This document shows, in pieces, positions 2,173 through 47,548 of a stretch of DNA of 47,548 nt. The position numbers were made by a program, and so were the translations under genes. Origin of the DNA: Myxococcales bacterium (GTDB lineage Bacteria; Myxococcota_A; Polyangia; Polyangiales; Polyangiaceae); NCBI GenBank assembly GCA_025354825.1, contig JANXMC010000211.1, positions 1 to 47,548 of the forward strand, given 5' to 3'. The notes beneath the pieces were generated by a model. It had not been told where the DNA came from and did not search any database. It saw only the letters and a list, made by a program, of their open reading frames with translations. The stretch's first letter is position 1; every line of letters begins with the position of its first letter.

Positions 2173-2427
2173 GCCGTTTGAGGATGCCTGAAGGCGTGGC
2201 CGCGTCTAGCGGCGTTCGCACGGTCGGGTGCGCCGGACGGACGCCTACGATGTGCGCAAACGCTGCGATTGGTGCATCGCTCGTCAGCCCGTGAAGCACA
2301 TCTGTGGACACTGACTGTCAGGTTTCGAGCGCGCGTCGATTTCGTGAGGTTCGTCGACGCCAGGCTCCCTCTGCGCATGACACTGCAGGTTGGCGCGCCG
2401 TGGTGGCGTCGGACGACGATGCGGCCA

Positions 2428-2964
2428 GTGCTTGGCCTGATAGTCGAAGAAGATATGGTCGCGATCGGCCAGGACGACGAAGAAGTGTCCTTTTCGGCAG
2501 GTTTGTCGTCGTCCGTCGTCGAGTGGCTCGGGTTGAATCGAGACGCCGGTGGCGTCGGTGGAGAGACAGAAGGCGTTTGCGATCGTCTCGCGTCGCGCCG
2601 CCTCGACGATGAAGCCGAGGACGGCGCCGATCTCTTCGGCGTAGCGTGCCATCGTGCCGCGATCGAGGCTGAACCCCTCGCGCGCGAACTGCTGCTCGAG
2701 GCGATGAAAGGGCATACCCGTGGGGTATTTCTGCACGAGCAGGTGCGCGATCATCGAGGGAGCGAGCATGCCGCGGCGAGCGATCTCGCGCGGGCATGGC
2801 GCTCGGACGAAACACGTCGTTGCGGACGCGGCGCTTGGCTCCGAGATCGCGGTCGAGGCTTCGGTCGGTTGCGGCGTCGCGTCGTGCTTCTTCTTGTAGA
2901 CGGCAGGCGTAGCGGCTACGTGCAGCTCGACGCCGACGTGTCCGCCGATGAGCAGGCGCTCGCT
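2428..2964 (-). pseudogene. IS66-family transposase fragment (middle part)
   Basis: On the minus strand the frame shows an IS66 core: 'RRGMLAPSMIAHLLVQKYPT', 'MPFHRLEQQF', then 'LSTDATGVSIQP' with the first catalytic Asp of the DDE triad, followed by 'GHFFVVLADRDHIFFDYQ'. Similarity stops at about 2428, where the family should continue with the second Asp and the C-terminal Glu region. Upstream of about 2964 the reading is low-complexity Arg-rich and not transposase-like. It is therefore a truncated remnant with no activity expected. The Cys-rich lipoprotein gene begins its 3' end only about 220 bases away, which suggests an old insertion between these genes. Confidence 0.8.
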
Positions 2965-3182
2965 GACGCCGCCACGAGCGGTCCTCACGCGCTTCCGACA
3001 GGGACGTGGCTCGGCGGCGGCGGTCAGTTCTCGGCGCGCGCCGACCAGGCCGAGCACGCCATCGTCGAAGCGGCGTCGGCGGCGATCGGTGATCGTCGCG
3101 CGGCTCGAAGCCGATGGGATCGGCCGTGGTCGGCGTCCGTAACCGGACACCCAAGCGTGACAGCGACGATGACGAGGAGCGC

Positions 3183-3893
3183 TCACCTCGGCTCGCACCC
3201 GCCCGGCGACCCCGAGCACGTGCCGGAGGTGAACGCGATGCAGCGTCCGCCGCCGCACTGCGTATCGTCCCTGCACGGCTCGACGCAGACCTCATTCCCG
3301 ACGTCGGTCAGCGATACGCAGCAGTACCCGCCCCCGCACGACTTCGCGGTGCTGCAGCACCCGTAGGCGCTGCCGTCCGCCTTCCCCTTGCACACGAACG
3401 GTCCCGCGGGGTTGCCACTCGCGTCTGCCTGCGGCGCGCAACACCCGCTCGCGCACTCGGTCGTCTTGCTGCAGAGGCACGTCTGGCCGGCGACGACGCC
3501 GTTCGGGAGGCACGCCGCGCCACCCGCGACCAGCTGCGTGCAGCAGCCTTTCGCGGCCGGACACTGGCTGCTCGTTGTGCAGGACTGCGCGCACGTCTTC
3601 GTGCCCGTCCCGTCGTCGACGCACGCCGCGCCCGTCGCGCAACAGCTCCCGCCGCAGGACGGCCGGCCATCGGGACAGCCCGTGCCGGCATCGGTCGCGA
3701 CGCACTGGCACGCGCCGAAGCCCGCGCCGGCCTTGTCGCACGTCTGCGACCCTGTCGCGCCGGTCGGACATACGCAGGCTTGCGTCGTGCCGGGCGTGCA
3801 CGACTGCGCCGTCCCACTGCTTCCGCTGGAACAGCCCGTCGAGGCACCTGCCGCGAATGCCCACACCACGATCACCACCGCGCTCGTCCTCAT
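3183..3893 (-). CDS. Cysteine-rich secreted lipoprotein
   Basis: The 236-residue protein has an N-terminal signal peptide ending in a lipobox (STGC, Cys21). The mature part is packed with Cys pairs in short repeats of the kind 'CGGSCC', 'KGCCT', 'SGCC', 'YGCC' and 'GYCC'. Such proteins are common in myxobacteria and are presumed to be disulfide-stabilised surface proteins, but no function is established and I assign none. It is divergent from the XRE-type regulator at 3988. The 94-base gap between them holds an 8-bp inverted repeat and an AT-rich box, so the regulator may control it. The start ATG was chosen because it gives the complete signal peptide. Confidence 0.8.
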   Translation of the reverse strand: MRTSAVVIVVWAFAAGASTGCSSGSSGTAQSCTPGTTQACVCPTGATGSQTCDKAGAGFGACQCVATDAGTGCPDGRPSCGGSCCATGAACVDDGTGTKTCAQSCTTSSQCPAAKGCCTQLVAGGAACLPNGVVAGQTCLCSKTTECASGCCAPQADASGNPAGPFVCKGKADGSAYGCCSTAKSCGGGYCCVSLTDVGNEVCVEPCRDDTQCGGGRCIAFTSGTCSGSPGGCEPR

Positions 3894-3927
3894 CGCGTAC
3901 CTCCGCCGGCGAGGCGCCGGTTCACGT

Positions 3928-3956
3928 AAACAGCTTACATATTATCTTAGCTGTTT
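3928..3956. promoter_or_regulatory. Candidate operator/promoter between the Cys-rich lipoprotein and XRE genes
   Basis: AAACAGCT (3928-3935) is repeated as a perfect inverted copy AGCTGTTT (3949-3956), with 13 AT-rich bases between. The spacer includes TATTAT (3940-3945), a good -10 element for the plus-strand regulator. An AT-rich palindrome in this GC-rich setting, directly in front of an XRE regulator, fits an autoregulatory operator. Binding is inference. Confidence 0.55.
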
Positions 3957-3987
3957 TAGGAGACACAACTGGCGCGTCCTGCGAGGC

Positions 3988-4260
3988 GTGCCGGACGCGG
4001 ACAAGACCATCAAGAACGTGGGCAAGCGCGTGGCCGAGCTCCGGGAGACGGCGGGGCTCACCCAGGACCAGCTCGCCGAGCAGGTCGAGATGGACGCCCA
4101 GAATCTCCGCTCGATCGAAGCCGGGCGGCGAAACCTGACCATTCGGACGATGTGCCGGTTGGCGACCGCCCTGAAGTGCTCGATGCCGGACCTTTTCCTG
4201 CCGACGAAGCGACCGAAGCGAGGCCCGGGACGGCCGCGGAAACGCACCGAAGGAGCGTAG
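3988..4260 (+). CDS. XRE/Cro-type helix-turn-helix transcriptional regulator
   Basis: The product is about 90 residues and almost entirely an HTH_3 domain: 'VGKRVAELRETAGLTQDQLA' is helix 1-2, and 'AQNLRSIEAGRRNLTIRTMC' contains the recognition helix and the family's typical 'IEAG' turn. The short basic tail is 'RPKRGPGRPRKR', which resembles an AT-hook. The frame is open far upstream, but that part antisenses the lipoprotein gene, so I take the GTG at 3988. A CTG at 3979 behind the AGGAGA at 3958-3963 is an alternative. The size and architecture fit small repressors of restriction-modification, toxin-antitoxin or phage type. It probably binds the palindrome at 3928-3956. Confidence 0.85.
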   Translation: MPDADKTIKNVGKRVAELRETAGLTQDQLAEQVEMDAQNLRSIEAGRRNLTIRTMCRLATALKCSMPDLFLPTKRPKRGPGRPRKRTEGA

Positions 4261-6374: not shown

Positions 6375-6530
6375 CCCCGTGGGGAGGGCGTCGGCAGACC
6401 CCATCGCTTCCGCGAATAGTCGTCCTTCGCTCCTCCGCGTGCTTGATGTTCTTGACCACGCCGTGCCATCTTTGCCCGCTCGGGTGCGGTGATTCGGTCG
6501 CCGACTCCTCGGTGTACTCTGCGAGATGAC

Positions 6531-7328
6531 ATGAGCAGCGTGACCTCCATCGAGTGGACTGACGCGACCTGGAACCCAGTTCGTGGCTGCGCCAAGGTGA
6601 GTCCCGGCTGTAAGCACTGCTACGCCGAGACGTTCGCTGAGCGATTCCGTGGCGTGCCAGGTCATCCCTACGAGCAAGGCTTCGATGTACGACTCGTCCC
6701 CGACAAACTCGCCGAACCTCTCAAGTGGGCTGAACCGAGGCTCGTCTTCGTGAACTCGATGAGCGATCTCTTCCAGGTCGACGTGCCAGATTCGTACGTG
6801 GTGGCAGCCTTCGACCTGATGCGCCGAGCCGACTGGCACGTGTACCAAGTGCTGACGAAGCGCGCCCTTCGGATGCGTCGGTTCGCAAGATCGCATCGCG
6901 AGATTGCGACGATGAACCACGTCTGGCTCGGGGTCAGCGTTGAAGATCGCAAGTACGGGTTGCCGCGGATCGAGCAACTGCAGGAGACGCCGGCTTCGAC
7001 ACGCTTCTTGAGCATCGAACCGCTACTGGAGGATCTGGGTCGCATCGATCTCACCGGCATTTCCTGGGTAATCGTTGGCGGCGAGAGCGGCCCGCATGCC
7101 CGGCCAGTGCACAAGGAATGGGTGCTCGCGATCCGAGACCAGTGCCGTGCGGCGAGCGTTCCGTTCTTCTTCAAGCAGTGGGGCGGCGTGCAGAAGTCCA
7201 AGCATGGGCGGAGTCTCGACGGTCGCCTTTACGACGAGATGCCCGCACTCCCAGCACGCGCGGCGCCGACGGCGGCAAGACGGCGTACCCTTATCTCCAA
7301 CTTCACCTTGCCGGTCGTGCATGGCTAG
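6531..7328 (+). CDS. Gp37/Gp68 family (DUF5131) three-Cys-motif protein, copy 1
   Basis: The 265-residue product carries the family hallmark near its N-terminus, 'GCAKVSPGCKHCYAE' (C20, C27, C30, a CX6CX2C arrangement), after 'IEWTDATWNP'. Further conserved blocks are 'VFVNSMSDLF', 'YQVLTKRA', 'WLGVSVE', 'RFLSIEPLL', 'WVIVGGESG' and 'PFFFKQWGG'. The Cys set resembles the cluster-binding motif of radical SAM enzymes, and the family is believed to bind an Fe-S cluster, but no reaction is established. It overlaps the downstream partner gene tcmP by 8 bases, the expected family pairing. The ATG at 6531 is chosen because it directly precedes the conserved block. Confidence 0.9.
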   Translation: MSSVTSIEWTDATWNPVRGCAKVSPGCKHCYAETFAERFRGVPGHPYEQGFDVRLVPDKLAEPLKWAEPRLVFVNSMSDLFQVDVPDSYVVAAFDLMRRADWHVYQVLTKRALRMRRFARSHREIATMNHVWLGVSVEDRKYGLPRIEQLQETPASTRFLSIEPLLEDLGRIDLTGISWVIVGGESGPHARPVHKEWVLAIRDQCRAASVPFFFKQWGGVQKSKHGRSLDGRLYDEMPALPARAAPTAARRRTLISNFTLPVVHG

Positions 7329-8613
7329 AGCGCCGTATGTCTGGGACCTGGCTGCTCCACCTCGGATCGGGATTCACAGCCGCGCGAAGCACCGCATCCT
7401 CGGCGAGTACCTGCGCCGCTACGTAAGGGTGCTGACGTCTTCGGCACCCGGCATGGAAGCGCTAAATTTGGCGGTCATCGATGGATTCGCGGGTGGCGGT
7501 CGGTACCTCGCCGACGACGGCGAGTTGGTCGACGGGTCACCATTCGTCGCGATCGATGCGCTTCGCGAGGCCGAGGTCTCCCTCAACGCGAATCGACGGA
7601 AGCCGATCAAGGTCAACGCGCGCTTCTACTTCGTCGACGAAGACGCGCCCGCCATGAGCTGCCTCCGCACGTTGATCGATCGGCGTCCCGACCTGTGCCG
7701 CGACAAGGATGGAGCGTCCGTCAGAACGTTCAACTTGGCGTTCGCCGATGCACTCCCCGCCGTCATCGCCGACATCAAGCGAAGCCGCGCGAAACAGCCT
7801 CGCGCGATCTTCATCCTAGACCAATACGGCTACACGGACGTTCCCGTGGGCATGCTCAGGACGATCTTCAGAGAGCTTCCTCGCGCAGAAGCATTCGTCA
7901 CGATCGCCGTCGGTTGGATAGCCGCATATCTTCGCGACCCGGCCGACATCGCTCAGCGGCTTGGCGTGCCGCGCGATCGGATCGCGGAACTCGCGACAAC
8001 CCTTCGTGAAGAGGATGCCCTCGACGTGCGAGCCGGGCGCGACCGTGGGCACTTCTTCCTCATTCAACGAATTCTCAGGGAGGCTTTCGTTCGCGATACC
8101 ACGCAGTTTTACACGCCATTCTTCATCGTCTCGCGCGACAGCAATCGAGCGTACTGGTTGCTTCACCTCGCGAACAGCTCGAAGGCCCACGATGTCGTGA
8201 AGACCTTGCACTGGGAGTACGAGAACCACTTCCAGCACTTCGGGAAGGCCGGGCTCGACATGCTCGGCTACGATCCAGAGCGCGACGCCGATCTCACAAG
8301 GCAGGCTTCGTTTTGGTTCGACCACGACGCGCGAGAGCGGACTAGGGCAGCGCTCCGAGGCGCCGTGGCAGACCGGCTTGGAAGGGGATCGGGCGCCGTC
8401 ACCTTCGACGATCTCTACGCCGGGGTCTGCAACGAGACGCCCGCCACGAAGACCATCTTGGGCGACGCCGTTTGCGATCTCGCGGCCGAAGGCAGCGTCA
8501 CCAAGACGGGCGCCGCGGGGGAGCACCGCGAAGCTCGGACGGTGCCGCGTGGAGACGACATGCTTACAAGGTCGCGGCAGATCTTTCTCGATCTCGGAAA
8601 GCGTCGTCCGTAG
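7321..8613 (+). CDS. tcmP: Three-Cys-motif partner protein, TcmP-like, copy 1
   Basis: The 430-residue protein starts at an ATG inside the end of the Gp37/Gp68 gene. It has a Rossmann/methyltransferase-like pattern: 'VIDGFAGGG' (residues 52-60) resembles the SAM-binding glycine loop, and 'FILDQYG' (164-170) takes the place of the catalytic 'DPPY' motif. The C-terminal third contains a domain like that of DNA-associated winged helices. TcmP proteins are defined by occurring next to PF07505 (Gp37/Gp68) proteins. A methyltransferase role is a fold-level inference only. It is 112 residues longer than copy 2 and shares little beyond the motifs. Confidence 0.85.
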   Translation: MARAPYVWDLAAPPRIGIHSRAKHRILGEYLRRYVRVLTSSAPGMEALNLAVIDGFAGGGRYLADDGELVDGSPFVAIDALREAEVSLNANRRKPIKVNARFYFVDEDAPAMSCLRTLIDRRPDLCRDKDGASVRTFNLAFADALPAVIADIKRSRAKQPRAIFILDQYGYTDVPVGMLRTIFRELPRAEAFVTIAVGWIAAYLRDPADIAQRLGVPRDRIAELATTLREEDALDVRAGRDRGHFFLIQRILREAFVRDTTQFYTPFFIVSRDSNRAYWLLHLANSSKAHDVVKTLHWEYENHFQHFGKAGLDMLGYDPERDADLTRQASFWFDHDARERTRAALRGAVADRLGRGSGAVTFDDLYAGVCNETPATKTILGDAVCDLAAEGSVTKTGAAGEHREARTVPRGDDMLTRSRQIFLDLGKRRP

Positions 8614-9705: not shown

Positions 9706-10473
9706 TCACACGATCACTGGCAGCGACCGTAAGCGCCCGCGATGCGTTGTCGCATGGTCCGCCAACTTTGGCATTTCATCCCACGTTCGACCTTCCAGGA
9801 GACGCCCCGCGCGCTTCTTGTTCTTGCCGCCCCACTGCTTGAAGAAGAACGGCACGCCGGCCGAGCGACATTGGTCGCGGAGATCAACAGCCCATGCCGC
9901 CTCCATCGGTCGAGACCTCGGCCCAGACTCCCCGCCGACGATCGCCCAGTGGATCCCGCCGAGATCCAGTTTCGGAAGCTGCCCAAGCAGTGGCTCCAAC
10001 GAGAGAAACCGGACGTGCGCACGCGTTCGCCGGAGGTCGGCGATGCGCCCGACGAACTTCGCACTCTCGACGCTCACGCCCATCCAGATGTTCGGCGCCC
10101 ATTCGATCTGCTCGTCCAGCACCACGAGGCGCGCGGCGCGCTTTGTCAGCACCTGGAACCGGTGCCAATGAGCGCGGCGCATGACGTCGAACACCTGTTG
10201 GACGTAGGTAACCGGAACATCGTCGTGAAAGAGGTCGCTCATCGAGTTGACGAAGATGGTCTGCGGCTTTCTCCACGTGAGGGGGAGCTCGAGCATCTTT
10301 GGCTGGAGCGTCAACTCGAAGCCGTGGCGGTAGTTCGGTTGCCCCATGGCCTGAAGTCGTTCGGCCATGCGCTCGGCGTAGCAGTGTTTGCAGCCGGGGC
10401 TGATTTTCGTGCAGCCCGTGACTGGGTTCCAGGTCGACTCCGTCCACTCGATTGCTGATCCGTGCGCCATCAT
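9706..10473 (-). CDS. Gp37/Gp68 family (DUF5131) three-Cys-motif protein, copy 2
   Basis: The 255-residue product has 'GCTKISPGCKHCYAE' (C21, C28, C31) and the same block order as copy 1: 'IEWTESTWNP', 'IFVNSMSDLF', 'FQVLTKRA', 'WMGVSVE', 'RFLSLEPLL', 'WAIVGGESG' and 'PFFFKQWGG'. By eye the two copies are clearly homologous over their whole length. The start is the first ATG of ATGATGG at 10473, whose ATGA overlaps the TGA of the upstream tcmP gene, so it is translationally coupled. In this pair the partner gene comes first, whereas in copy 1 it comes second. Presumed Fe-S protein; reaction unknown. Confidence 0.9.
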   Translation of the reverse strand: MMAHGSAIEWTESTWNPVTGCTKISPGCKHCYAERMAERLQAMGQPNYRHGFELTLQPKMLELPLTWRKPQTIFVNSMSDLFHDDVPVTYVQQVFDVMRRAHWHRFQVLTKRAARLVVLDEQIEWAPNIWMGVSVESAKFVGRIADLRRTRAHVRFLSLEPLLGQLPKLDLGGIHWAIVGGESGPRSRPMEAAWAVDLRDQCRSAGVPFFFKQWGGKNKKRAGRLLEGRTWDEMPKLADHATTHRGRLRSLPVIV

Positions 10474-11426
10474 CCAACCGTCTTTAGTAGGTGGTTGGCG
10501 ATCCGGATCGCGATCGGCGCGCCCTTGTCGTTGCCAACAGCGAAGCAGAGCAGGTAGAGCGGACAATTCGCCGAGTTCAGCAGGACCCTCGGCTCGGGAG
10601 CGACGTCCGCGAAGACTCCGCGCAGGCGATCGTTGAAGTAGCGGCCGATCGTCTCGGTCGTCGCCTTGACGACCTTCGTTTCCTGCGTGTCGAATAGCGT
10701 CGGCACATGCTCCACTCTGTAGAACGCATCGTACCACTCGTGCGTGCCCAGCAGCAGATCGAGCCGGCGTCGCCAAGACCTCGGGATCTCGCCAGACCGC
10801 GTGAGCAGCCGGTTCACCCCAACGCCGAGGGGGAACAAGAGCCAGAGGTCGATTGCCCGGGTCGCGGCGACGGCTTCGATCGTTGTCCACTCGACCTGCG
10901 TCCCGTAGGGGTCGAGGAACAGCACAGCGCGGTGCTTCGACCAGTCTTTGGTCTTGGCGCAGAGCGCACGAATCTCCTCATTTGCGTCGCCGCGCCGCAC
11001 GTCGATGTCCTTGGCCAGCGACGGGAATTCGGTCCGCAGCGCCTCGAGCTCATGGCAACGCTCGGCGCTTCGCTCGATGAAGATGTATTTGTCGAACCGC
11101 GGCTCGGTCTTCAGCGCGATCCGCGCAGAGCCGTCGAGGAGGCTCTGCGGATCGGGCTCCGCTAGATCGGGAAAGATCATGCCGTCGTTCGGGCCCTCGC
11201 TGGGATCCCGCAGCGTGCGATAGCCCGTGCCCGCGAACGCGTCGATGTATGCAGTCTTGAAGCGCTGGTTCTTCAGCGCGGTCGTGTAGCCGCGGAGGTA
11301 GTCGCCAAGGATGGCGAGCTTCGTCCCGGTCCAGTCCCCGCCGAACCGGTGCGCCTTTCCCCGAACGGTTGCGCGTCTCCGAGTCACCACGAACACATAC
11401 TGAACGGGAGAGCAGGACTTGTCCAC
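10470..11426 (-). CDS. tcmP: Three-Cys-motif partner protein, TcmP, copy 2
   Basis: The 318-residue product contains the typical TcmP opening 'HRFGGDWTGTKLAILGDYLR' followed by 'YIDAFAGTGYR' (D62 to G68, like a SAM-binding motif I) and 'LFLDPYGTQVEW' (D172-P-Y-G175, like motif IV of methyltransferases). The rest is compatible with the family. A GTG at 11426 gives the listed start; in-frame GTGs about ten codons later are alternatives because the conserved part begins at about residue 25. It overlaps the Gp37/Gp68 gene by four bases (ATGA). It is a standard-length TcmP, unlike the much longer copy 1. Confidence 0.88.
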   Translation of the reverse strand: MDKSCSPVQYVFVVTRRRATVRGKAHRFGGDWTGTKLAILGDYLRGYTTALKNQRFKTAYIDAFAGTGYRTLRDPSEGPNDGMIFPDLAEPDPQSLLDGSARIALKTEPRFDKYIFIERSAERCHELEALRTEFPSLAKDIDVRRGDANEEIRALCAKTKDWSKHRAVLFLDPYGTQVEWTTIEAVAATRAIDLWLLFPLGVGVNRLLTRSGEIPRSWRRRLDLLLGTHEWYDAFYRVEHVPTLFDTQETKVVKATTETIGRYFNDRLRGVFADVAPEPRVLLNSANCPLYLLCFAVGNDKGAPIAIRIANHLLKTVG

Positions 11427-12104: not shown

Positions 12105-12694
12105 ATGTCCGACAAGCGCGTCCAAGTCACCCTCCGCCTCCAAGAAGACGATCTCACGCGCGCCGACGACATCCTCGCGAAGATGGATCCGGTCATCGCC
12201 TCGCACCTCGCGCGCGCCGGCCTTCTCGCCGCATGCCTGACGCGCGGCCTGACGGCGTTCGAAGAAGAGCTCTCCCTCCGCGGAGAGAAGGCTTCGCCTC
12301 GCCGCCCCTCGCCGCTGCAGCTCGCGGCGACGAGCGCCGTCCTCTCGCGCACCGCCGACCGACCTCTCTCGAAGCCCTCGGAGTCGAAGAAGCCGAAGTC
12401 GCGGAAGCCTGGAGAAGAAGCGCACGTGATCTCGTCGCGCAGGTGCACTCGATCAAGAAGCGGGTGCTCGGGAGCGGGAAGGTCGCGTTCGATGCGGAGC
12501 GCACGGCGCGCCGCGGGCACGACCGCTTCTGGCGATCGCGCTCGCGTGCCAGCGGGAGCGGGCCGGCGGACGCGCGGGAGGCGGAACGGAGATTGGTGTG
12601 CGGGTACTCGGATAGGGTTCAGACGTCCTTCACCGTCGATAACCAACGCGTACCAGGAGATCTATGTCCTGTGCGTGCTTCCACAGCGCGCTGA
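12105..12694 (+). pseudogene. Ribbon-helix-helix-like gene with a probable internal frameshift
   Basis: The ATG at 12105 opens '[20 protein letters not shown]', then '[20 protein letters not shown]', a strand-helix-helix pattern like DNA-binding ribbon-helix-helix proteins. After about residue 75 this frame becomes Arg/Ser-rich. A second frame then reads '[20 protein letters not shown]' and '[20 protein letters not shown]', with good codon use, from about 12350. The simplest reading is one gene split by a frameshift near 12330-12360. Its tail runs into the 3' end of the HEPN-type gene on the other strand. Family and partner unknown. Confidence 0.4.
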
Positions 12695-13581: not shown

Positions 13582-14132
13582 GTGACGAATCTCCATGGCG
13601 CGGCTCAGGCCACAGAGGATCGGCTGCAGGCGATCCTCGAAGCGGTCGTCGTCGGCGCCGGTGTGCAAGACCCGCGAGCATCACCGGCGGTGAAGGCGTC
13701 GGCGCCCTCTTCGGCATCGCCGGCGCCCTCGCGCCCCCCCGACGACCCCGAGGCGCTCTGCCTCCTCTTCGAGCACTCGAACTCGCTCCGTCAGAACGTT
13801 GACGCCTACGCCACCAACTTCGATGGTTTCGGGCACCGGCTCGACCCCGCGATCGAGTTCGACGCCGACGATGCGGATCGTCTCGTCGGCGAGTGCGTCT
13901 ACCTCGAGCGGCTCGCGCCCAGGAGCGCGGAGACATCCCGCTGGACGCCGAGCTCGAGCCAACGCCCGAAGAGGTGAAGGCGCGCCGTCGCGAGCTCGTG
14001 CAGTTGGCGCGCGCCGAGCGGGCTCGTCTCACGTCGTTCTTCGAGTCGTGCTCGTTCGATCACTCCTTCGTCGCGTTGCGTCGCCGCACGCGGCAGGACC
14101 TCGAGGCCGAACTCGCCGCCGCGGGCGGCTGA
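13582..14132 (+). pseudogene. Phage portal protein, N-terminal remnant with frameshift
   Basis: From about 13735 the frame reads '[20 protein letters not shown]' and '[16 protein letters not shown]', the signature N-terminal part of a phage portal protein. At about 13918-13935 the frame is lost, and the next frame continues with '[20 protein letters not shown]', '[20 protein letters not shown]' and '[14 protein letters not shown]' to a TGA at 14132. The bulk of the portal (normally several hundred residues after this point) is missing. This is a truncated and frameshifted remnant, 12 bases in front of the tail tube gene. The stretch 13338-13581 upstream shows no recognisable gene. Confidence 0.65.
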
Positions 14133-14144
14133 TCGGAGGACGTC

Positions 14145-14606
14145 ATGCCCGTCATCGGCAACCCGCGCAGCTTCCACAAGAAGTTCAAGTTCACCGTCGA
14201 GATCGACGACGTCGGCCACGCCGGCTTTCAGAAGTGCTCCGAGATCTCCGTCGAGGTGGCGAAGGTCGAGTACTTCGAGGGCGGCTCGCTCATCCCCAAC
14301 AAGAGCCCCGGGAGGCTCACGTTCGCCGACGTGACGCTCGACCGCGGGGCGACGCAGGACCGCGATCTGTTCGACTGGCTCCAGGACGTCGCGATCACGT
14401 CGAGCGGTCTCGGGCTCGTCGACCCGTACTACAGGCGCAACCTCGACGTCGTGCAGCAGGACCGCGACGGGACGACGCTCCGGCGATGGTCGCTCTCGCG
14501 CGCCTGGCCGACGAAGTTCGTCGCGGGCGAGTGGGACAACGAGAGCGACGAGAACGTGATCGAGCAGGTCACGCTGGCGTACGACTTCTTCGAGTTGGTG
14601 CAGTAG
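14145..14606 (+). CDS. Phage tail tube protein (T4 gp19-like / PF06841 family)
   Basis: The 153-residue product has the standard length and pattern of tail tube subunits of contractile tails: '[20 protein letters not shown]', '[20 protein letters not shown]', '[20 protein letters not shown]', '[13 protein letters not shown]' and a terminal '[10 protein letters not shown]'. It would stack into the inner tube of a phage tail or injection device. It appears intact with a purine-rich RBS (GGAGG at about 14136-14140). It is the only clearly intact tail gene in the cluster; sheath genes are missing. It is followed, in the opposite orientation and overlapping by 38 bases, by a nuclease-like gene. 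Confidence 0.9.
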
Positions 14607-15711
14607 CCGCGTTCTGCACGGCGATCGTGGTCCGGGTGAACGCCGATATCTTTTGCTGCAAGCCTTCGATGGACCTACGAAGCTTGATTGCCGCGGTCTT
14701 CTCGCCGGCGCCGTCCGCCATGTTCAGATCTCTGCGTCCCGCCACGCTCTGAAGCATCCTGGCTTCGAAGTAAATCTGCGACACCGCGTCGCTCACGCCA
14801 GCAATCAAGCCCTCGCATTCGAACGCGACGGACGAACGTGCGCCGGCCAGGGCCTCGACATCCACCGCGACAGCCGCCGCGTTCGCGCCGGGCAAGCGCT
14901 CGTTGACGGCCGTGAGGCGCAATCGTTCGGCCATCCCGCCCCACCCCTGGTTGAGAATACCCACGGCCGCCCGCGCTCGCCGAGTCTCGACCTCGCGCGC
15001 TCGGATCGCCTCGCCTCGGAGCTCGCGAAGCAGATTCCAACCGTTGCGGCGGTCCGCGTCAGACTTGCTGCGCTCTTGCGCGAGCTCATCGCTCAGCGCC
15101 AACGCGGAATCAGGCAAGTATCGACCGGCGACATCGAGGTTGTCGCGGAGAAGGTCTTCGAGGTCCTGTCCCTCCCGGTATCTGATCGCGCACCCCGCGA
15201 CGCGCTGGTCCGTCGCCGCATGCAAGTTGATGCGAGGCAGCTTCGGAGCTTTTGCCTTCCCGGCCGACACCTTCGTGGCTCCCTTCGCTGCCAACTTCAG
15301 CTTGGCCGCAGCTTCAAGCTCCTTAATGAGAGCGCGCGCGTCGTTACGAAGCTGACTCATGACCCAACCCAGGTCGGGGGCGGAAAGCTGTCGAGGGAGC
15401 AACAGCACCCAAGTATTGCAAGCGAAGGGATGCGCGCATGCCCGCACAAACGCCTCGGTGATCTCTTCGCGGTGCGTCGGCGAGAGCTCCTTGAAGAATT
15501 TGCATTGGTAGACCGTCGCCTCCCCGGTAACAGGGTCCTGAAAACCGACACCGTCAATGCCGCCATCCCCGGCCGTGACGCGGACGTTGTGTACCGTCGG
15601 GTCGGACCTGCGAAGCAGTTCCACCCAGATGTCTTCGTGCAGGTTTCCAGCTGCAGCAGGTGACCCTCCAGGCGCCTGAGCCTGGATCGCTGCGTAGATG
15701 TTTTGGGACAT
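14569..15711 (-). CDS. PD-(D/E)XK nuclease-like protein (cargo gene)
   Basis: The 380-residue product starts at ATG 15711. The N-terminal 75 residues have a PD-(D/E)XK signature: a helix with '[11 protein letters not shown]', then '[12 protein letters not shown]' (D53) and 'ATVYQCKFF' (Q69-C-K71), as in Mrr-type restriction-like domains. The remainder is a long Ala/Leu/Arg-rich helical region with several probable coiled coils and no named domain. The C-terminal residues are encoded inside the tail tube gene and look like read-through into tail DNA. The layout suggests a DNA-cleaving effector or restriction-type defence protein. It is oriented against the tail genes and sits between tube and baseplate genes. 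Confidence 0.7.
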
Positions 15712-15794
15712 GAAGAAGCAGGGTAGACCGGCAGCGCGTCGATGTCCCCCACGCGTCCCGCGAGCGCTTTGGTCCACCGGAGGCGACGCTCGCG

Positions 15795-16563
15795 ATGCCG
15801 CACACGATCCGCTGCCCGTCCGGCCTGACGGGAACCATCCGTGGCCTCAAGGTCCGTGAAGAGCGCGTCCTCGCCGATCGCAAAATCGCGAAGGCCGGCG
15901 GCGTCGTCGACGAGCTGCTCCGCGCGTGCTGGGAGGAGACCGAGGACTACGGCCTGTACTCCTTCGACGCCGGCAAGACCGACTGGGACAAGGTCCTCCA
16001 GGGCGACCGCTTCTTCGCGCTGCTGCAGATCCGCGCGCTGACGTACGGCCCCGACTACGCCTTTGCGATCACCTACCGCGAGGACGCCTGCCGCGCGCGC
16101 ATCGAGTGGGAGCTCGATCTTGACCACCTCCCGGTCCGCCCGCTCTGCGGCGAGAGCCGCGACGCGTTCCTCGCGGGCAGCCGCATCGAGACGCGCCTCC
16201 CCGACGCCGGGCACCGCGTGTGGTTCCGCCTCCTCACCGGCGCCGACGAGCGAAAGCAGCTCTTGGGCGTCGAGTCCTACCTCGATCGCTTCTTCGCGAA
16301 GGAGCAGAGCGACGACGCCGACATATTCTCGACAATCGCGTACCGCGTCGTCGACGGCGACACGCTGTTCAACCTTGCGGGGCCGTTACTTCGCGCCGCT
16401 GCCGCGCGCGTGCGGATACTGGTGGGCGATCGCTGACTTTCTGCCGGACCCGATCCTCGACCCGACGCTCGCGCTCGAGACGGGGCGGGCGATCGTGATC
16501 CCCGCGACGCGTGTGCTGACCGACGTGATCGTCGCCGAGTCACGTCGCAGGGAGCAGGACTGA
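15795..16563 (+). pseudogene. T4-type baseplate protein fused to a gp53/LysM-like tail part, frameshifted
   Basis: The first 155 residues match the T4-like baseplate family: '[20 protein letters not shown]', '[13 protein letters not shown]', '[20 protein letters not shown]' and '[20 protein letters not shown]'. Then, without its normal C-terminus, the reading passes into '[14 protein letters not shown]', and in the next frame into '[20 protein letters not shown]' and 'GRAIVIPATRVLTDVIVAES', which resembles gp53/LysM-like baseplate or tail proteins. The frames change at a run of four G at 16379-16382, where one extra base would explain it. I read it as two tail genes fused by a deletion plus a frameshift. 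Confidence 0.65.
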
Positions 16564-16569
16564 AAAAGC

Positions 16570-17781
16570 TCAACTCAGAACTGGCTCATAGAAAACCGCA
16601 TCAAGGAGGGCGACCCTTGCATTCCAGATCCGTCTCTCGTTCAGGTCCTCCGGCGAAGGCGCCAAGAACCAAGGGAAAGCCCAGATCTGCTGAATCGTCT
16701 TCAGGTACTTCTCGATCGAGTCCGGTCTCTTCCCGAACACCTCGCCGATCCGTCTCGAACTCGCGTTGTTCGCCGGTAGAAACCGATCCGGGCGCTTCAT
16801 CGTCAGCAGGCGCGTTGCGGCACCGAGGGCGACCCCGCGAATCGACATCGCGGCCTCAAGGTAGGCACGCGCCATCGCAATCGACACGGTCCCCTTGAGC
16901 GGCACCTCATCGAGCGCTGCGCTCAGCTCGGCCGGATGCTCACCCGTGAGGTTCTTGAAGTAGCCGGCACCCGACATGTTCCCGATATACCCGCGAGAGC
17001 CGCCGCCCCATCCCGCCACGAGCTTGCGGCGCTCAACCGGCATCTTCTGAAAGTCGGGCGAATCGCGGAAGGCGCGTTGACAGCCTTCGATCTCCTGCAG
17101 ATACGAACCGTTCTCGTGGTCGAACACGTGGATCGTCCAATTCGTACCGGACAACGAGCGCCGCTCTTGCCGTCCGATCAAGCCGGCGAACTGCGACCAA
17201 TCGATCTGCAGCTCACTCGCGGCTGACACCGTCTTCAGCGCCTTCTTGCCGTTGCCCATCTTGGGGGGCTTTGGTCGCGACTCGTACAGGCGCGTGTAGT
17301 CGTCCATCCAGCCATCGTCGGGCTCGAACGCGCGCGGGTGGTGCCACTGCTCGTCGATGAATGATGCGATCCTGACCATCGGCTCGTCGGCGAGCGCGCC
17401 GCCAAGCAACACGTTCAGCTCCGTGTTTCCGGAGAATCCACCCAGCGTAAAGTTGCTCGAGCCCATGAGCGCTCGCGCTTCCTCGCCTCGCCGTGCGAGC
17501 AGAACCTTTGGGTGGAACACGCCGCCCGTATCCGGCACGACCCTGAGCACCGAGAGGTCCCGCAACTCCTGGAGGACAAAGGGCTCCGTCTGGGCAAAGT
17601 GAATCCCGAGCACAACGCGCTTCAGCCGTTCACGCGGAAGCACGGACCAGTGCTCGGCGGAGCCTCCGGAACTGGCCGCCCATGCGTAGCAGAGGCTGAT
17701 CTCTCGAGCCCATTCGCAGAGGCCACGCAGCGCCTCCATCGATTCGTCTGCGCCGCTCAGAATTCGAACCTCTGGCGACAT
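16570..17781 (-). CDS. Phospholipase D-like (PLD) nuclease-type protein (cargo gene)
   Basis: The 403-residue product starts at the ATG at 17781; the frame is open further upstream but that part overlaps tail remnants. The signature is 'GVFHPKVLLARR' (H90-P-K92) followed by 'GSSNFTLGGFSGNTELN' (S108-S-N110, E121), as in PLD-type nucleases and BfiI-like restriction enzymes rather than in phospholipases with two full HKD motifs. The C-terminal half has 'RPDRFLPANN' and a helical region with no clear name. It probably cuts DNA or RNA as a homodimer. It lies opposite to the tail genes, between baseplate and gpD-like genes, and like the PD-(D/E)XK gene looks like inserted defence-type cargo. Confidence 0.72.
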   Translation of the reverse strand: MSPEVRILSGADESMEALRGLCEWAREISLCYAWAASSGGSAEHWSVLPRERLKRVVLGIHFAQTEPFVLQELRDLSVLRVVPDTGGVFHPKVLLARRGEEARALMGSSNFTLGGFSGNTELNVLLGGALADEPMVRIASFIDEQWHHPRAFEPDDGWMDDYTRLYESRPKPPKMGNGKKALKTVSAASELQIDWSQFAGLIGRQERRSLSGTNWTIHVFDHENGSYLQEIEGCQRAFRDSPDFQKMPVERRKLVAGWGGGSRGYIGNMSGAGYFKNLTGEHPAELSAALDEVPLKGTVSIAMARAYLEAAMSIRGVALGAATRLLTMKRPDRFLPANNASSRRIGEVFGKRPDSIEKYLKTIQQIWAFPWFLAPSPEDLNERRIWNARVALLDAVFYEPVLS

Positions 17782-17870
17782 GAGAACCGAGCGTATCAGG
17801 CGGCTCGACGAGCGCGCGCTCCCCGGCACCAGGTGGTCCCATCCGAGGGGTATCCTTGCTTTGCCCCTCC

Positions 17871-18226
17871 GTGAAGCCCGGCGACCGCAGCGCTCCCGGC
17901 GTCCGACTGACGCTCTCCAAGGACGAGAAGGCGACGATCGGCGAGCCCCTCGACTTCGGTGTGCGCTGCTCTCGTTCGCGTTCGAGGACTGCGAGGAGAA
18001 GGCCGACAAGCTGTCGCTCACGCTCGACAACTTCGATCTCGCGCTCTTCGACCGCGAGGAGCTGATGGCGGGCGCGGTGCTCGAGGTCATGCGCCGACAA
18101 CACGTGTTCGACGCCAGCCTCTTCGGCTCGCTCCTTCCTGCAGAAGCGTGGGACCGCGTTCCGGAAGAGCGGCTGAAGGAACTGCTGGCGGCCGCTCCTT
18201 CGTTCCGCCCGCCCCCGCTCAAGTAG
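17871..18226 (+). pseudogene. Phage late control D (gpD)-like tail protein, rearranged remnant
   Basis: A GTG at 17871 begins 'KPGDRSAPGVRLTLSKDEKA' and 'TIGEPLDFG', a typical start of gpD-type baseplate hub proteins. Near 17960 the frame slips by one base, and 'SFAFEDCEEKADKLSLTLDN' and 'FDLALFDREELMAGAVLEV' follow in the next frame. The last 45 residues ('FDASLFGSLLPAEAWDRVPE') do not belong to this family's expected continuation and may come from another tail gene. It is therefore truncated, frameshifted and possibly fused by deletion. It continues the baseplate gene order after the PLD gene. Confidence 0.6.
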
Positions 18227-18982
18227 CCGACGGCTTCCCGCGCGGGGCCGCAGCATGCGATAGCTCGAACATGGGCGGCAAGCGCACGCTCGGCGAGATC
18301 CTCGATATCAAGACGACCCGGCTTGTTGTGATCCACGACGAGTGGGTCCGATACCACCCAGCGCATCGGCACCGGTTGGTTGTTGATGGGCGAGCACATT
18401 GCCGAGAACCGCGTCCACGTGCTGGTTGACCGACGCCAGCGTGCTGGGTGACGGCTCCCGCGCAAAGGCGTGAACGCTGCGAACGAGACAGAGAAAATGA
18501 CCGCGCAACGTATCGAGGATGCCGACTGGCAGAAGCATGGGATCCCAGCCATTCCTGCGGGAGAGGATTATTTTTCACGGCGTCGACGAAGGGGTTGGAC
18601 ATGCGCGGTGTCCACAATACCTCGTCAGCCTGTGTGAGCGCTGCGCTGCCCGCGGTCGGTCGGACACGGGTCAGGTCCCCGCGGGGTCTGTGTGTCGTGC
18701 ACAACAGCCCGCGTGCGTCCGGTTCTGCCGACGAGTGTTTTCGAGCGTGGCCTCAGCTTGCGAGCGTGCCCGGCAGCATGCAGTGGACGGACGGCATGTG
18801 TCTCGCTCCTCGTCGGGAACATCTCGACCACGTGGCGCCTTCGCCGGGCTCTTTCGCTGGCCGTTCGTTCGAAGATGTTCCCGACGACCGCCGCAACGGG
18901 GGTCGATCAAGAGCGAGCCGACCACCACGAGCTGATAGCTCTCGTGGATGTCGCGGATGCTGGTGCGTGATAGGCGTTCCGC
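18227..18982. other. No recognisable intact gene; remnants and an inverted repeat
   Basis: These 756 bases hold only overlapping weak reading frames. On the minus strand between about 18245 and 18600, short well-behaved pieces ('VVDHNKPGRLDIEDLAERAL', 'TLASVNQHVDAVLGNVLAHQ', 'MSNPFVDAVKNNPLPQEWLG') lie in different frames, which suggests a decayed gene of unknown family. A 15-bp inverted repeat is at 18810-18887. Confidence 0.5.
18810..18887. repeat. 15-bp perfect inverted repeat with a 48-base loop
   Basis: TCGTCGGGAACATCT (18810-18824) is answered by AGATGTTCCCGACGA (18873-18887), a perfect 15-bp inverted repeat with 48 bases between. It is in a stretch with no gene. It could be a recombination or binding site, an end of a small element, or a stable RNA hairpin. 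No poly-T follows, so a rho-independent terminator is unlikely. Confidence 0.7.
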
Positions 18983-19510: not shown

Positions 19511-19558
19511 CGCGGATTGAAAATCCGCGTGTCGACGGTTCGATTCCGCCCCTGGGCA
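19511..19558 (+). other. 3' half of tRNA-Phe (GAA), probable attachment site (att) of the integrated element
   Basis: The sequence has an anticodon stem-loop: GCGGA, loop TTGAAAA with anticodon GAA at 19519-19521, then TCCGC. It continues with a T arm (GACGG, loop TTCGATT, CCGCC, one A-C mismatch), the acceptor 3' strand CCTGGGC and a discriminator A. The expected 5' half (acceptor 5' strand GCCCAGG and D arm) is absent upstream. This is therefore a tRNA fragment starting in the anticodon stem, a classic tyrosine-integrase crossover position. The intact gene should lie at the far end of the element, outside the window to the left. Confidence 0.8.
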
Positions 19559-19673
19559 CTGCACTCTCTTTGATACGTGCCCTCGCACTTGGGCACGAGC
19601 GAGCTGCGGCGCATGCCGCGTTGGACGGCCTACTCGACGGCTTGTTCGAAAATGCGAGCTCGAGGGCTCGGGC

Positions 19674-27677: not shown

Positions 27678-30600
27678 ATGTCGAACACCACCGACCCTTC
27701 GACCGTCACGAAGCCTCGAGCTCACGAGGGCTCGTTCGGCCGCGACATGTTGCTCGCCCTGCAGCGCTTCAAGGAAGGTGACTTCACCGCCCGCCTCGGC
27801 GCCGATTTCACCGGGATCGACGGCAAGATCGCCGAGACCTTCAACGAGATCCTCAGCGTCAGTGCTCGGCGCGCCGACGAAATCGAGCGTGTGTGTCGCG
27901 TCGTCGGCAAGGAGGGCAAGCTCAAACAGCGAATGAACGTCCCCGGCGCCGTCGGGGGTTGGGCCGACGAGGTCACTTCGTTGAACACGCTCATCGACGA
28001 TCTGGTGTGGCCGACCAAGGAGGTCACGCGAGCGATCGGCGCCGTCGCCAAGGGCGATCTCACGCAGGCGATGGCGCTCGACGTCGACGGAAGGCCGCTC
28101 GAAGGCGAGTTCCTCCGCTCGTCTCAGCTCGTCAACAACATGATCGATCAGCTGTCGGTCTTCACCTCCGAGGTCACACGCGTCGCGCGCGAGGTCGGCA
28201 CCGAAGGAAAGCTCGGCGGACAGGCGCAGGTCAAAGGCGTCTCCGGGGTCTGGAAGGACTTGACCGAGTCGGTCAACCAGATGGCCGGCAACCTCACGGC
28301 GCAGGTGCGAAACATCGCCGAGGTGACCATCGCCGTCGCCAGCGGAGACCTCTCGAAGAAGATCACCGTCGACGTGCGCGGCGAGATTCTCCAGCTGAAA
28401 GAGGCCATCAACACGATGGTCGAGCAGCTCCGCTCGTTCGCCTCGGAGGTGACGCGCGTCGCCCGCGAGGTCGGCACCGAGGGAAAGCTCGGTGGGCAGG
28501 CGGTGGTCCCGGGCGTCGCCGGCACCTGGAAAGACCTCACCGACAACGTCAACTCGATGGCGTCGAACTTGACTGGGCAGGTGCGCAACATCGCCGAGGT
28601 CACCACCGCCGTCGCCCGCGGCGACTTGTCGCGCAAGATCACCGTCGACGTCAAAGGAGAGATTCTCCAGCTCAAAGACACCATCAATACGATGGTCGAT
28701 CAGCTCAATGGCTTTGCCTCGGAGGTCTCCCGCGTCGCTCGTGAAGTCGGCAGCGAAGGAAAGCTCGGCGGACAAGCGCAAGTGCCCGGCGTCGCCGGCA
28801 CTTGGAAAGACCTGACCGACAACGTCAACTCGATGGCCTCGAACCTCACCGGTCAAGTGCGCAACATCGCCGAAGTGACCACCGCCGTCGCCCGTGGCGA
28901 CCTGTCGCGTAAAATCACGGTCGACGTCAAAGGCGAGATTCTCCAGCTCAAAGACACCATCAATACGATGGTCGATCAGCTCAATGGCTTTGCGTCCGAG
29001 GTCTCCCGCGTCGCGCGTGAGGTCGGCACCGAAGGAAAGCTCGGCGGACAAGCGCAAGTACCCGGCGTCGCCGGAACGTGGAAAGATCTCACCGACAACG
29101 TCAACGCGATGGCCTCGAACCTCACGGGCCAAGTGCGCAACATCGCCGACGTCGCCAAGGCCATCGCCAATGGCGACTTGTCCCGAAAAATCACGGTCGA
29201 CGTCAAAGGCGAAATCCTCGAGCTGAAGAACACGATCAACCGCATGGTCGATCAGCTGAACGCGTTCGCGTCCGAGGTCACGCGCGTCGCCAAGGAGGTC
29301 GGCACCGAAGGAAAGCTCGGTGGCCAGGCGGAGGTCGAAGGCGTCGCCGGCGTCTGGAAGAACCTCACCGAGAACGTCAACTCGATGGCCTCGAACCTGA
29401 CCGATCAGGTGCGCAACATCGCCGAGGTCGCGACCGCAGTGGCTCGCGGTGACTTGTCACGCAAGATCACGGTCGACGTCGAAGGCGAAATCCTCGCGCT
29501 GAAGAACACCATCAACACGATGGTCGATCAGCTGAACGCATTCGCCTCCGAGGTCTCTCGCGTCGCCCGCGAGGTCGGCACCGAGGGCAAGCTCGGCGGC
29601 CAGGCCCAGGTCGGCGGCGTCGCCGGCACGTGGAAAGATTTGACCGACAACGTCAACTCGATGGCGTCCAACCTGACGGGCCAGGTGCGCAACATCGCCG
29701 AGGTCACCACCGCCGTCGCGAAGGGAGATCTCTCCCGCAAAATCACCGTCGACGTGAAGGGCGAAATCCTCCAACTGAAAGACACCATCAACACGATGGT
29801 CGATCAGCTCAATGGATTTGCGTCAGAGGTCTCTCGCGTCGCGCGCGAGGTCGGGACCGAAGGAAAGCTCGGCGGCCAAGCGGCGGTTCCCGGCGTCGCC
29901 GGCACCTGGAAAGATCTCACCGACAACGTCAACTCGATGGCGTCCAACCTGACGAACCAGGTGCGCAACATCGCCGACGTCACCATCGCCGTCGCCAAGG
30001 GCGACCTCTCGCGAAAAATCACCGTCGACGTGCGCGGCGAGATTTTGCAGCTGAAAGAGGCCATCAACACGATGGTCGATCAGCTCAATGGCTTTGCGGC
30101 CGAGGTCACCCGCGTGGCGCGTGAGGTCGGGACCGAGGGCCGCCTCGGCGTCCAGGCCGTGGTCCCCGGCGTCGCCGGCACTTGGAAAGACCTCACCGAC
30201 TCGGTCAATGCCATGGGGACCAACCTCACGGCGCAAGTGCGCAACATCGCCGAGGTCACGACCGCGGTCGCGCGCGGCGACTTGTCACGAAAGATCACCG
30301 TCGACGTCAAAGGCGAGATTCTGGAGCTGAAAAACACCATCAACACGATGGTCGATCAGCTCCGCTCCTTCGCCTCCGAGGTGACGCGCGTCGCCCGCGA
30401 GGTCGGGACCGAAGGAAAGCTCGGCGGGCAGGCAGACGTGCCGGGAGTCGCCGGCACCTGGAAAGATCTCACCGACTCCGTCAACTTCATGGCCGCCAAC
30501 TTGACCAATCAGGTGCGCGGCATCGTCAAGGTCGTCACCGCGGTCGCCGACGGAAACCTGCGCCAAAGACTGACGGTGGAGGCCAAAGGCGAAGTCGCGG

Positions 30601-33600
30601 CGCTCGCCGAGACCATCAACAACATGACCGACACGCTCGCGACCTTCGCCGAGCAGGTCACCAACGTGGCCAAGGAAGTCGGCGTCGAAGGGCGCCTCGG
30701 CGGTCAAGCCAACGTCCCCGGCGCCGCTGGCACTTGGAAAGATCTCACGGGCAACGTCAATTTGCTCGCTGCCAATTTGACGAACCAGGTCCGCGCCATC
30801 GCCGACGTCGCGACCGCGGTGACGACGGGCGATTTGACCCGATCGATCCAGGTCGAAGCCCGCGGTGAAGTCGCCGAGCTCAAAGACAACATCAACACGA
30901 TGATCGACAACCTGCGCGGGACGACCGATCGCAATCAGGAGCAAGATTGGTTGAAGACCAACCTCGCGAAGTTCACGCGCATGCTCCAGGGACAACGCGA
31001 GCTCGTGACCGTCGGTCGAATGTTGCTGTCCGAGCTCGCGCCGCTGGTCGACGCGCAGCAGGGCACGATTTACCAGATGGAGCGGAGCGATCCCGGCGAG
31101 GCGGCCGCCCCGACCGGACGCAATACGCTGCAGCTGCTGGCGACCTACGCGCAACGCGCAGACCTACCCTCTCGCATCGCGCTCGGCGTCGGTTTGGTCG
31201 GCCAAGCGGCTGCCGAGCAGCAGCGCATTCTCCTCAACGACGTGCCGCCCGGCTACACGACGATCGAGTCGAGCCTCGGCTCGGCGCCGCCGACCAGCGT
31301 GATCGTCCTCCCGGTGCTCTTCGAGGGCGAGACGATGGCCGTGATCGAGCTCGCGGCGCTACGACCTTTCACCAATACCCACCTTCAATTCCTCGATCAG
31401 CTGACGCAGTCGCTCGGGGTCGTCTTGAACACCATCGAGGCGACGATGCGCACGGAGAATCTCCTCCAGCAATCGCAACAGCTGACGACCGAGCTCCAGA
31501 CCCGGCAAATCGAGCTTCAACAGACCAACGAAGAGCTCGCGTCCAAGGCCAAACAGCTCGCGGAGCAGAACGCCGAGGTCGAACGGAAGAACAAGGAAGT
31601 GGAGCACGCGCGAAGGGCGCTCGAAGAGAAGGCCGCGGAGCTGGCGCTGACCTCCAAGTACAAGTCGGAGTTCCTCGCCAACATGTCGCACGAACTGCGC
31701 ACGCCCCTCAATTCGATTCTGATTCTCGGTCAGCAGCTCTCGGAGAACGTGCATGGCAATCTCAGCGGCAAGCAGGTCGACTTCGCGAAGAACATCCACT
31801 CTGCCGGCACCGACCTCCTCACGTTGATCAACGACATCCTCGATCTCTCCAAGATCGAATCGGGAACGGTCACCGTCGAGCCCGAGGAGATCACCTTCGC
31901 CGGCCTGCGAGAGACCGTCCATCGGACGTTCCACCACGTCGCGGAGACGAAGGGGCTCGGCTTCCACATCGACGTCGACTCGTCGCTCCCCCGCGCGATC
32001 ATCAGCGATCCGAAGCGCCTTCAGCAAATCCTCAAGAATCTCCTGTCGAACGCCTTCAAGTTCACGGCCGCGGGCTCGGTCGCCCTCTCGCTTCGATTGG
32101 TCACCTCCGGTTGGAACACCGACCACGCCGTCCTCGGCTCCGCCACGTCGGCCATCGTCTTCGAGGTCACCGACACCGGAATCGGAATCGCGCCCGAGAA
32201 GCAGAAATTGATCTTCGAGGCTTTCCAACAGGCGGACGCGGGAACGAGCCGCAAGTACGGCGGAACCGGCCTCGGTCTCGCGATCAGTCGTGAGCTCGCC
32301 AACTTGCTCGGTGGTGAGATTCGACTTCAGAGCAAGCCGGCGGTGGGGAGTACGTTCACGCTCTACTTGCCAGTCGCCTACACTGGCCCGACGCAAAGGT
32401 CGGCGGACGCCGTCGGTCGCGCCCACTTGCCGACCACGGCGCCGGTCCTCACGGTGGTCAAGGTCGAAGAGACGGTGCCCGACGATCGCAACCAGATCGT
32501 GGCCGGCGACCTGGCGCTCTTGATCATCGAGGACGACGCCCACTATGCGCGCATCCTCCTCGGAATCGCGCGCACGAAGGGCTTCAAGGGCATCGTCGCC
32601 AACCGCGGTGGGCAGGCGATGTCCCTCGCCCGAGAGTACAAGCCAGCCGCCATCAGCCTCGACGTCTTCTTGCCGGACATGCTCGGATGGACGGTCCTCA
32701 ACAACCTCAAGTTGGATCCGCAGACGCGTCACATCCCCGTGCAGATGCTCTCGGTCGAAGAGGAGCGGCAGCATGGGCTCTCGCGCGGGGCCTTCGCGTA
32801 CCTCGTCAAGCCGGCGACCACGAGCGAGCTCGAGAGCGCGTTCGACAAGCTGCGAACGTTCGTCGAGCCGCACACCAAGCGCCTGCTCGTCATCGAGGAC
32901 AACGGGCGCGAGCGGGAGAGCATCGTCGAGCTCCTCACGCACGACGACATCGAAATCGTCGCGGTCGGTACCGGCCAGGAGGCCATCGCAGCTCTCCACC
33001 ATGGCCGCTTCGACTGTTGCGTCGTCGATTTGCGGCTGCCCGACATGACCGGCTTCGAGCTGCTCGAGAAGCTTCAGGGGGAGCCGGCGCTGCAGGAGAT
33101 TCCGGTCGTCGTCTTCACCGGGAAGGAGCTCACGCCAGCGGAAGAGAAGCAGCTACACGCCGTCGCGAAGAGCGTGATCATCAAGGACGTGCAATCGCCG
33201 GAGCGCCTCTTCGACGAGACCGCGCTCTTTCTCCATCGCGTCGTCAGCGAGCTGCCGGAGCCCAAGCGCAAGATGATCGAGCGTCTCCACGGCTCGACCG
33301 AGGTGCTCCGCGGGCGCAAGGTCCTGGTCGTCGACGACGACGCGCGCAACATCTTCGCGCTGACGACGATCTTGGAGAGTCAGGAAATGGAGGTGCTGAG
33401 CGCGACGAATGGTCGGCAAGCGATCGAAACCATCCACGCGACCACCGAATTGAGCGTGGTCCTGATGGACATCATGATGCCGGAGATGGACGGGTACGAG
33501 ACGATGCGCGAGATTCGTAAAGACGCGCGATTCCGTACCCTGCCGATCCTCGCGCTCACCGCCAAAGCGATGAAGGGCGATCGCGAAAAGTGCCTGCAGG

Positions 33601-33680
33601 CCGGCGCCTCCGACTACATCGCAAAGCCGGTCAACACCGACCAACTGCTCTCGCTCCTCCGCGTCTGGCTGTATCGATAG
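27678..33680 (+). CDS. Giant soluble poly-HAMP hybrid histidine kinase with GAF and three receiver domains
   Basis: The 2000-residue protein has no membrane segment. Residues about 20-165 hold divergent HAMP-like units, and 166-1085 are ten tandem 92-residue HAMP repeats ('[17 protein letters not shown]', '[18 protein letters not shown]', '[16 protein letters not shown]', '[13 protein letters not shown]'). A GAF domain (about 1109-1259) and a coiled coil (1260-1325) follow. HisKA has the phospho-His1338 in '[12 protein letters not shown]'. HATPase (about 1435-1570) shows 'DTGIGI' and 'GGTGLGLAI'. Three receivers carry Asp1662, Asp1784 and Asp1931. It strongly resembles the HAMP arrays of fungal Nik1/Os-1 osmosensing kinases, enlarged. 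The next kinase begins nine bases after its stop. Confidence 0.95.
28173..30932 (+). repeat. Ten tandem 276-bp repeats encoding the HAMP array
   Basis: Ten units of exactly 276 bp start at 28173, 28449, 28725, 29001, 29277, 29553, 29829, 30105, 30381 and 30657, each opening with a Val codon of 'VTRVAREVG' or a variant. Units 3 and 4 are almost identical in protein and highly alike in DNA, while the first and the last two are more divergent. All units are in frame. Such near-identical repeats are prone to unequal recombination. Confidence 0.92.
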
Positions 33681-47270: not shown

Positions 47271-47282
47271 TCCGTTGCAAGA

Positions 47283-47548
47283 TGCCGAACCTCCATCCGC
47301 TCCAGAAGCTCCTGCAGAGTCGCATCGCCATCATCGACGGCGCGATGGGCACGACCATCCGCACCTACGGCATGACCGAAGCAGACATCCGCGGGAAGCG
47401 GTTTCAGAGCTCGACCAAAGATCTGCTGAACAACGGCGACCTCTTCTCGCTGACGCAGCCGGCGATGATCTGCGACATCCACCGTCGTTTCCTCGAGGCC
47501 GGCGCCGACATCATCGAGACCAACACGTTCGGCGCCACCAGTATCACC
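47283..47548 (+). CDS. metH: Methionine synthase, N-terminal part (3' end outside window)
   Basis: The visible 88 residues are the start of the homocysteine-binding Hcy domain: 'LQKLLQSRIAIIDGAMGTTI', 'FSSTKDLLNNGDLFSLTQP'-like text, and 'AGADIIETNTFGATSI'. Cobalamin-dependent MetH makes methionine from homocysteine and methyl-THF; the zinc-binding Cys lie further on, outside the window. The ATG at 47283 follows the regulator stop by 12 bases, indicating co-transcription. The 'DGAMGT' and 'IETNTFGA' motifs are exactly those expected. Confidence 0.95.

Follow-up and report, generated by a model that had tools for sequence, protein, structure and literature searches.

The window analysed here, a 47,548-nucleotide stretch that constitutes contig C482 of a metagenome bin (G000; 8.98 Mb in 859 contigs), carries an orphan 3′ part of a tRNA-Phe (GAA) gene on the forward strand at positions 19512–19559. 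We read this orphan as the attR core left by a tyrosine-integrase element in a host tRNA-Phe gene, with the element or an array of elements on the left, chromosome on the right and the matching partner lost by misbinning, and we give this reading a probability of about 0.8. It is favoured because the same arrangement of intact and orphan copies is found together with integrases in relatives and attP-like copies are found in viral contigs, because the tRNA-Phe of one other genome (G038) is identical to the orphan and has similar phage-tail pieces on its integrase side, and because IS, phage and defence genes abound in the left region. Against it stand the lack of an identical tRNA-Phe in the bin, the lack of an integrase in the window, the inverted order of the tail-gene block in G038 and the affinity of the right flank to family f1.

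The orphan spans the tRNA from the 5′ strand of the anticodon stem to the discriminator base (19512–19558). The anticodon stem is formed by GCGGA (19512–19516) and TCCGC (19524–19528) and encloses the loop TTGAAAA (19517–19523) with the anticodon GAA at 19519–19521. A variable loop (19529–19533) is followed by a T arm with the stem strands GACGG (19534–19538) and CCGCC (19546–19550) around a loop at 19539–19545, and then by the acceptor 3′ strand CCTGGGC (19551–19557) and the discriminator A (19558). CCA is not encoded, which also holds for the order's intact tRNA-Phe genes, and the single mismatch in the T stem, A-C at 50:64, is common to the intact tRNA-Phe of G038, G083 and G023. Nothing corresponding to the D arm or the acceptor 5′ strand lies upstream of the orphan, neither ARAGORN nor Rfam called a tRNA anywhere in the window, and the complete cloverleaf of a functional tRNA gene was not found. 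Thus, the 3′ half without a 5′ half that had been reported in the preliminary description is confirmed, with coordinates correct to within one base. The orphan is identical at 39 of 42 bases to the tRNA-Phe 3′ half that is most frequent in the order, compared with 23–25 for the best site in ten shuffled windows or in the rest of the window, indicating that the match is not due to chance. BLAST comparison of the orphan gave E=1.2e-13 with the bin's own tRNA-Phe and E=1.6e-18 with that of G038. The window therefore contains a displaced tRNA end fragment, which is one of the criteria for an island. The closest gene with a Pfam match, encoding a USP, begins at 19674 (the Pfam scan took in part of the ORFs crossing the fragment).

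The 42-nt tRNA-Phe 3′ half was present in 129 of the 184 genomes searched within the order, with at least two copies in 28, both counts including G000; excluding this bin, two or more copies were present in 27 of 128 genomes. The copies within a genome were mutually identical in 23 of the 25 other genomes read, and G000 is a clear exception. An intact and an orphan copy lie on one contig in G013, G036, G053, G081, G082, G091, G140, G145 and G154. In all nine, the orphan is downstream of the intact gene in the same orientation, separated from it by 1.6–107 kb with an element between. The part shared by the tRNA-Phe copies of the relatives starts at the anticodon loop, and comparison of the copies identified a segment common to nearly all orphan and viral attP-like copies of the order (TTGAAAATCC... 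to ...GGCAC), which corresponds to 19517–19559 on the forward strand of the window. From this comparison we infer a crossover in or near the anticodon loop. Additionally, an integrase-like gene adjoins the intact copy in many relatives, its frame running antisense into the tRNA (G038, G083, G031, G020, G140, G091 and others). In G140 and G091 there is also an integrase to the right of the orphan. G031 contains a tandem array (G031:C3, L040:2879-15123) of three tRNA-Phe orphans 4.7–7.5 kb apart, two of them with an integrase or remnant.

The tRNA-Phe 3′ half was also present in six IMG/VR contigs. In four of these (L121, L122, L124 and L125) the core lacks the tRNA 5′ half and an integrase reads into it, which is as expected of an attP or of a junction between elements. 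The exact core of the orphan did not occur in the viral contigs, and a search of them with back-translated patterns found no relative of the G038 integrase. The many IS remnants and deletions to the left of the orphan would fit a plain tRNA pseudogene, whose 5′ half was deleted or which was copied as a fragment by an IS, with no site-specific integration; this is very unlikely, given that the break falls at the anticodon stem and loop, the same place as in integrase-associated orphans and viral attP-like sites.

The integrases of the order differ in where their frames end. In tRNA-linked integrases such as those of G038, G083, G031 and G140 the frame stops 18 nt past the core, within the tRNA (...CSTN* or similar), and in the viral contigs it stops 60–222 nt past the core. 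An integrase frame that crosses the core and has an altered tail was thus seen in relatives and viral contigs, not in the window, with ...STRGFSIRCSTN* as the tRNA-linked tail and other tails in the attP-like copies. The Myxococcus phage Mx8 is reported to carry its attP within int, the 3′ end of which is thereby replaced on integration (PMC6070905). Similar to Mx8, the integrase frame of the relatives runs through the attachment core, and the C-terminal tail changes on integration. Unlike Mx8, the target in the relatives of the locus is tRNA-Phe, and the window itself is without an integrase. Tentatively, a diverse family of tyrosine integrases across the order may keep its reading frame open on the antisense strand of tRNA-Phe. 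With every integration the C-terminus of the enzyme would then be exchanged for a host-tRNA-encoded one (...RGFSIRCSTN), which might serve as an integration-excision switch of the kind reported for Mx8. Phage records gave 14 weak matches to the G038 integrase at E 1e-3, none a myxophage by name (the collection may not include Mx8). Because this integrase shows no myxophage relative by sequence, the comparison with Mx8 is one of likeness in working and not of membership.

In the preliminary description it had been proposed that an intact tRNA-Phe with an identical 3′ part would be found together with a tyrosine integrase. This check failed in the assembly. Within the bin, the intact tRNA-Phe most similar to the orphan is on contig C618 and differs from it at 4 of 48 positions (28, 42, 50 and 64, of which 28:42 is a compensated change), and no intact tRNA-Phe identical to the orphan was found in the bin. 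No integrase was detected in the 14 kb tested beside the C618 gene, where a search at full sensitivity returned only the tRNA's own antisense. Likewise, the 47.5-kb window yielded no integrase or integrase remnant, its sole profile match being the antisense of the tRNA piece. This match scores 25 bits and falls within the range of about 18–39 bits given by our controls, tRNA-Phe genes that have no integrase next to them, when read in antisense. The visible left part covers 19.5 kb, and the place where an integrase is expected, adjoining the intact tRNA, would fall past the contig edge. What stands of the proposed integration boundary with an element on its left is the downstream position and same orientation of the orphan in 9/9 relatives, along with the IS, phage-tail and candidate defence genes on the left; the in-bin partner does not.

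Two contigs were considered as the missing end of the element. C618 was rejected as the opposite end for its four differences and lack of an integrase. C555, an integrase contig of the bin, was rejected as the left end since the tRNA 3′ end with which it opens is not that of tRNA-Phe and the integrase it encodes does not match the tRNA-Phe family. On C555 (L076:1-668), a tyrosine integrase lies antisense towards the apparent 3′ end of this other tRNA, which probably represents another insertion at a tRNA gene within the bin. A further contig, C620 (7.7 kb), has an eight-tRNA array called by ARAGORN at L006:6727-7520, which includes a second, divergent tRNA-Phe.

To the right of the orphan, positions 19674–47548 read as host chromosome, with genes for USP, Ada-AlkA, a HAMP-rich kinase, TauD and an ArsR-methyltransferase, and the start of metH. 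The kinase (27678–33680) is a 2000-aa hybrid kinase with 10 to 11 HAMP matches and up to 80% nucleotide identity to genes of other genera. A histidine kinase proved useless as a binning marker, having too many paralogues. None of the tRNA-Phe 3′ flanks examined in relatives matches the right flank of the window beyond the tRNA itself, and the genomes compared, which included no close relative, yielded no empty site. We also considered whether the orphan is a junction within a tandem array, so that the DNA on its right is element as well. Such junctions exist in G031, where two of the three orphans in a row have integrase sequence just to their right, and the integrases right of the orphan in G140 and G091 point the same way. 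The window orphan has no integrase on its right, the 25-bit match is within the control range, and the right side runs to the metH operon, making this arrangement quite unlikely here.

The metH operon also bears on the origin of the contig. The ArsR-methyltransferase and the metH start (47282–47548) at the end of C482 have an orthologous pair on C406, a contig of typical G000 composition, where the metH start lies at L162:1090-1344. The two pairs share 71% nucleotide identity, with 87% amino acid identity for metH, and other genera match the C482 copy better than the C406 copy. The tetranucleotide profile of the right flank correlates with the G000 pool at r 0.726 and with G038 at 0.886. Two orthologous metH operons in one bin and the mismatch in composition point to misbinning of C482, and a second organism in the bin is probably the simplest and best explanation of the missing tRNA-Phe partner.

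It is unlikely that the contig truly comes from the main organism of the bin, with an orphan that is unlike the resident tRNA-Phe because it arrived with a foreign element or stems from an additional tRNA-Phe gene that has since disappeared. An IS66 fragment at 2428–2906 that is 92% identical to G000:C735 would fit such an origin, as would a beta-helix gene with a 74% nucleotide relative on C91 and none in other genomes of the order among the matches listed, and the right-flank genes are, like G000, of family f1 affinity. However, this origin would place both orthologous ArsR-methyltransferase/metH operons, at 71% nucleotide identity and with the C482 copy closer to other genera, in one genome, and it must also account for the differing composition of C482 and for the identical tRNA-Phe copies in nearly all relatives.

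Composition also differs within the window. The left part correlates with the G000 pool at r=0.82, compared with 0.726 for the right, and left and right correlate with each other at r=0.68, as might be seen if the assembly had wrongly fused two sequences across the shared 48 bp. Usual final assembly k-mers are longer than 48 bp, and the composition of mobile elements often deviates, so a chimera is highly improbable.

The exact 48 bases of the orphan occur in only one of the 184 genomes, G038 (JANYDK010000051, a Deltaproteobacteria MAG), within its intact tRNA-Phe (48/48). Just downstream of this gene is a PF00589 integrase, the final 20 residues of which are encoded inside the tRNA. Past the integrase lie decayed phage-tail pieces 82–91% identical to positions 12425–12605, 13634–14064, 14147–14606 and 15881–15987 of the window. 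Because the tail-gene block of G038, seen from the att site, has the opposite direction and a different internal order from that of the window, these similarities support a shared kind of insertion and not the same element. An assignment of C482 to the genus of G038 is unsupported, as the right-flank genes are closest to genomes of family f1 and not to G038's family f8.

The left region begins with the C-terminal remnant of an IS66 transposase (1–330, forward strand; PF03050, E=5e-14) that is cut by the contig edge; the left boundary of the element would lie outside the contig. It is followed by a cargo gene for a lipoprotein of serine beta-lactamase fold (568–2172, reverse; PF00144, E=2e-56), the IS66 transposase fragment (2284–3276, reverse) that includes the stretch matching C735, and a phage-repressor-like HTH regulator (3388–4260, forward). 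Next are two candidate defence pairs, PDC-M30-like (6489–8613) and PDC-M41 (9706–11426), for which both components listed in PADLOC-DB are present and which are candidates only. The first consists of a DUF5131 protein that is a candidate PDC-M30B/M41B component (6489–7328, forward) and a PDC-M30A-like partner with a GMT-wHTH domain (7075–8613, forward; E=1.6e-16). The second consists of a DUF5131 protein as candidate PDC-M41B (9706–10890, reverse; E=1.3e-120) and a candidate PDC-M41A (10470–11426, reverse; E=5.2e-123). The two pairs are oppositely oriented, and their B genes share a stretch with 69% nucleotide identity.

Closer to the orphan is a collapsed cluster of phage-tail type (14096–18087, forward), collinear with viral contig L166 and with internal deletions. 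It includes a gp19-type tail tube gene (14145–14606, forward; phrog_4542, E=2.8e-44), which has matches of 97% amino acid identity in viral contigs, and a baseplate-hub gene fragment (15795–16257, forward). Two ORFs on the reverse strand overlap the tail remnants and are doubtful, a weak Mrr/LmuA-like ORF (14569–15777) and a weak PLD/DrmC-like ORF (16570–18552). Since tail genes of this type are common throughout the order and sit there on contigs separate from the one with tRNA-Phe, they are by themselves no proof of a tRNA-Phe phage. The left 19.5 kb may be one element or several accreted insertions.

In the model we propose, the attP of the element would duplicate the tRNA sequence from the anticodon loop down to the 3′ terminus. 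A crossover within that loop would supply the tRNA with an element-derived 3′ half, and the original 3′ half would come to lie at the opposite side of the element. This element or element array would occupy positions 1 to 19.5 kb and continue past the contig edge, with host chromosome on the right, and would by now be mosaic in structure, combining IS66 pieces with candidate defence genes and collapsed phage-tail genes. The absence of an intact partner tRNA and of the integrase would follow from the contig having been binned with the genome of another organism. In the Islander catalogue, a displaced tRNA 3′ fragment marks the end of an island, an anticodon-centred class of crossover is described and tandem arrays are known (PMC4383910). 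The relatives, with their paired intact and orphan copies and adjoining integrases, show this signature. Like these islands, the window has a displaced 3′ tRNA fragment with a predicted crossover at the anticodon, and the orphan is probably a real attR-type scar of this known kind with its element on the left. Unlike them, its cognate tRNA and integrase are absent from the contig and the bin, and a strict search would miss the locus.

The test for a matching tRNA in the same genome thus breaks down when a metagenome bin combines two organisms, and here the tRNA-Phe mismatch itself helped to reveal the mixing. The orphan locates one boundary of an island that carries candidate defence genes, and in this order of myxobacteria tRNA-Phe emerges as a hotspot at which integration has recurred.
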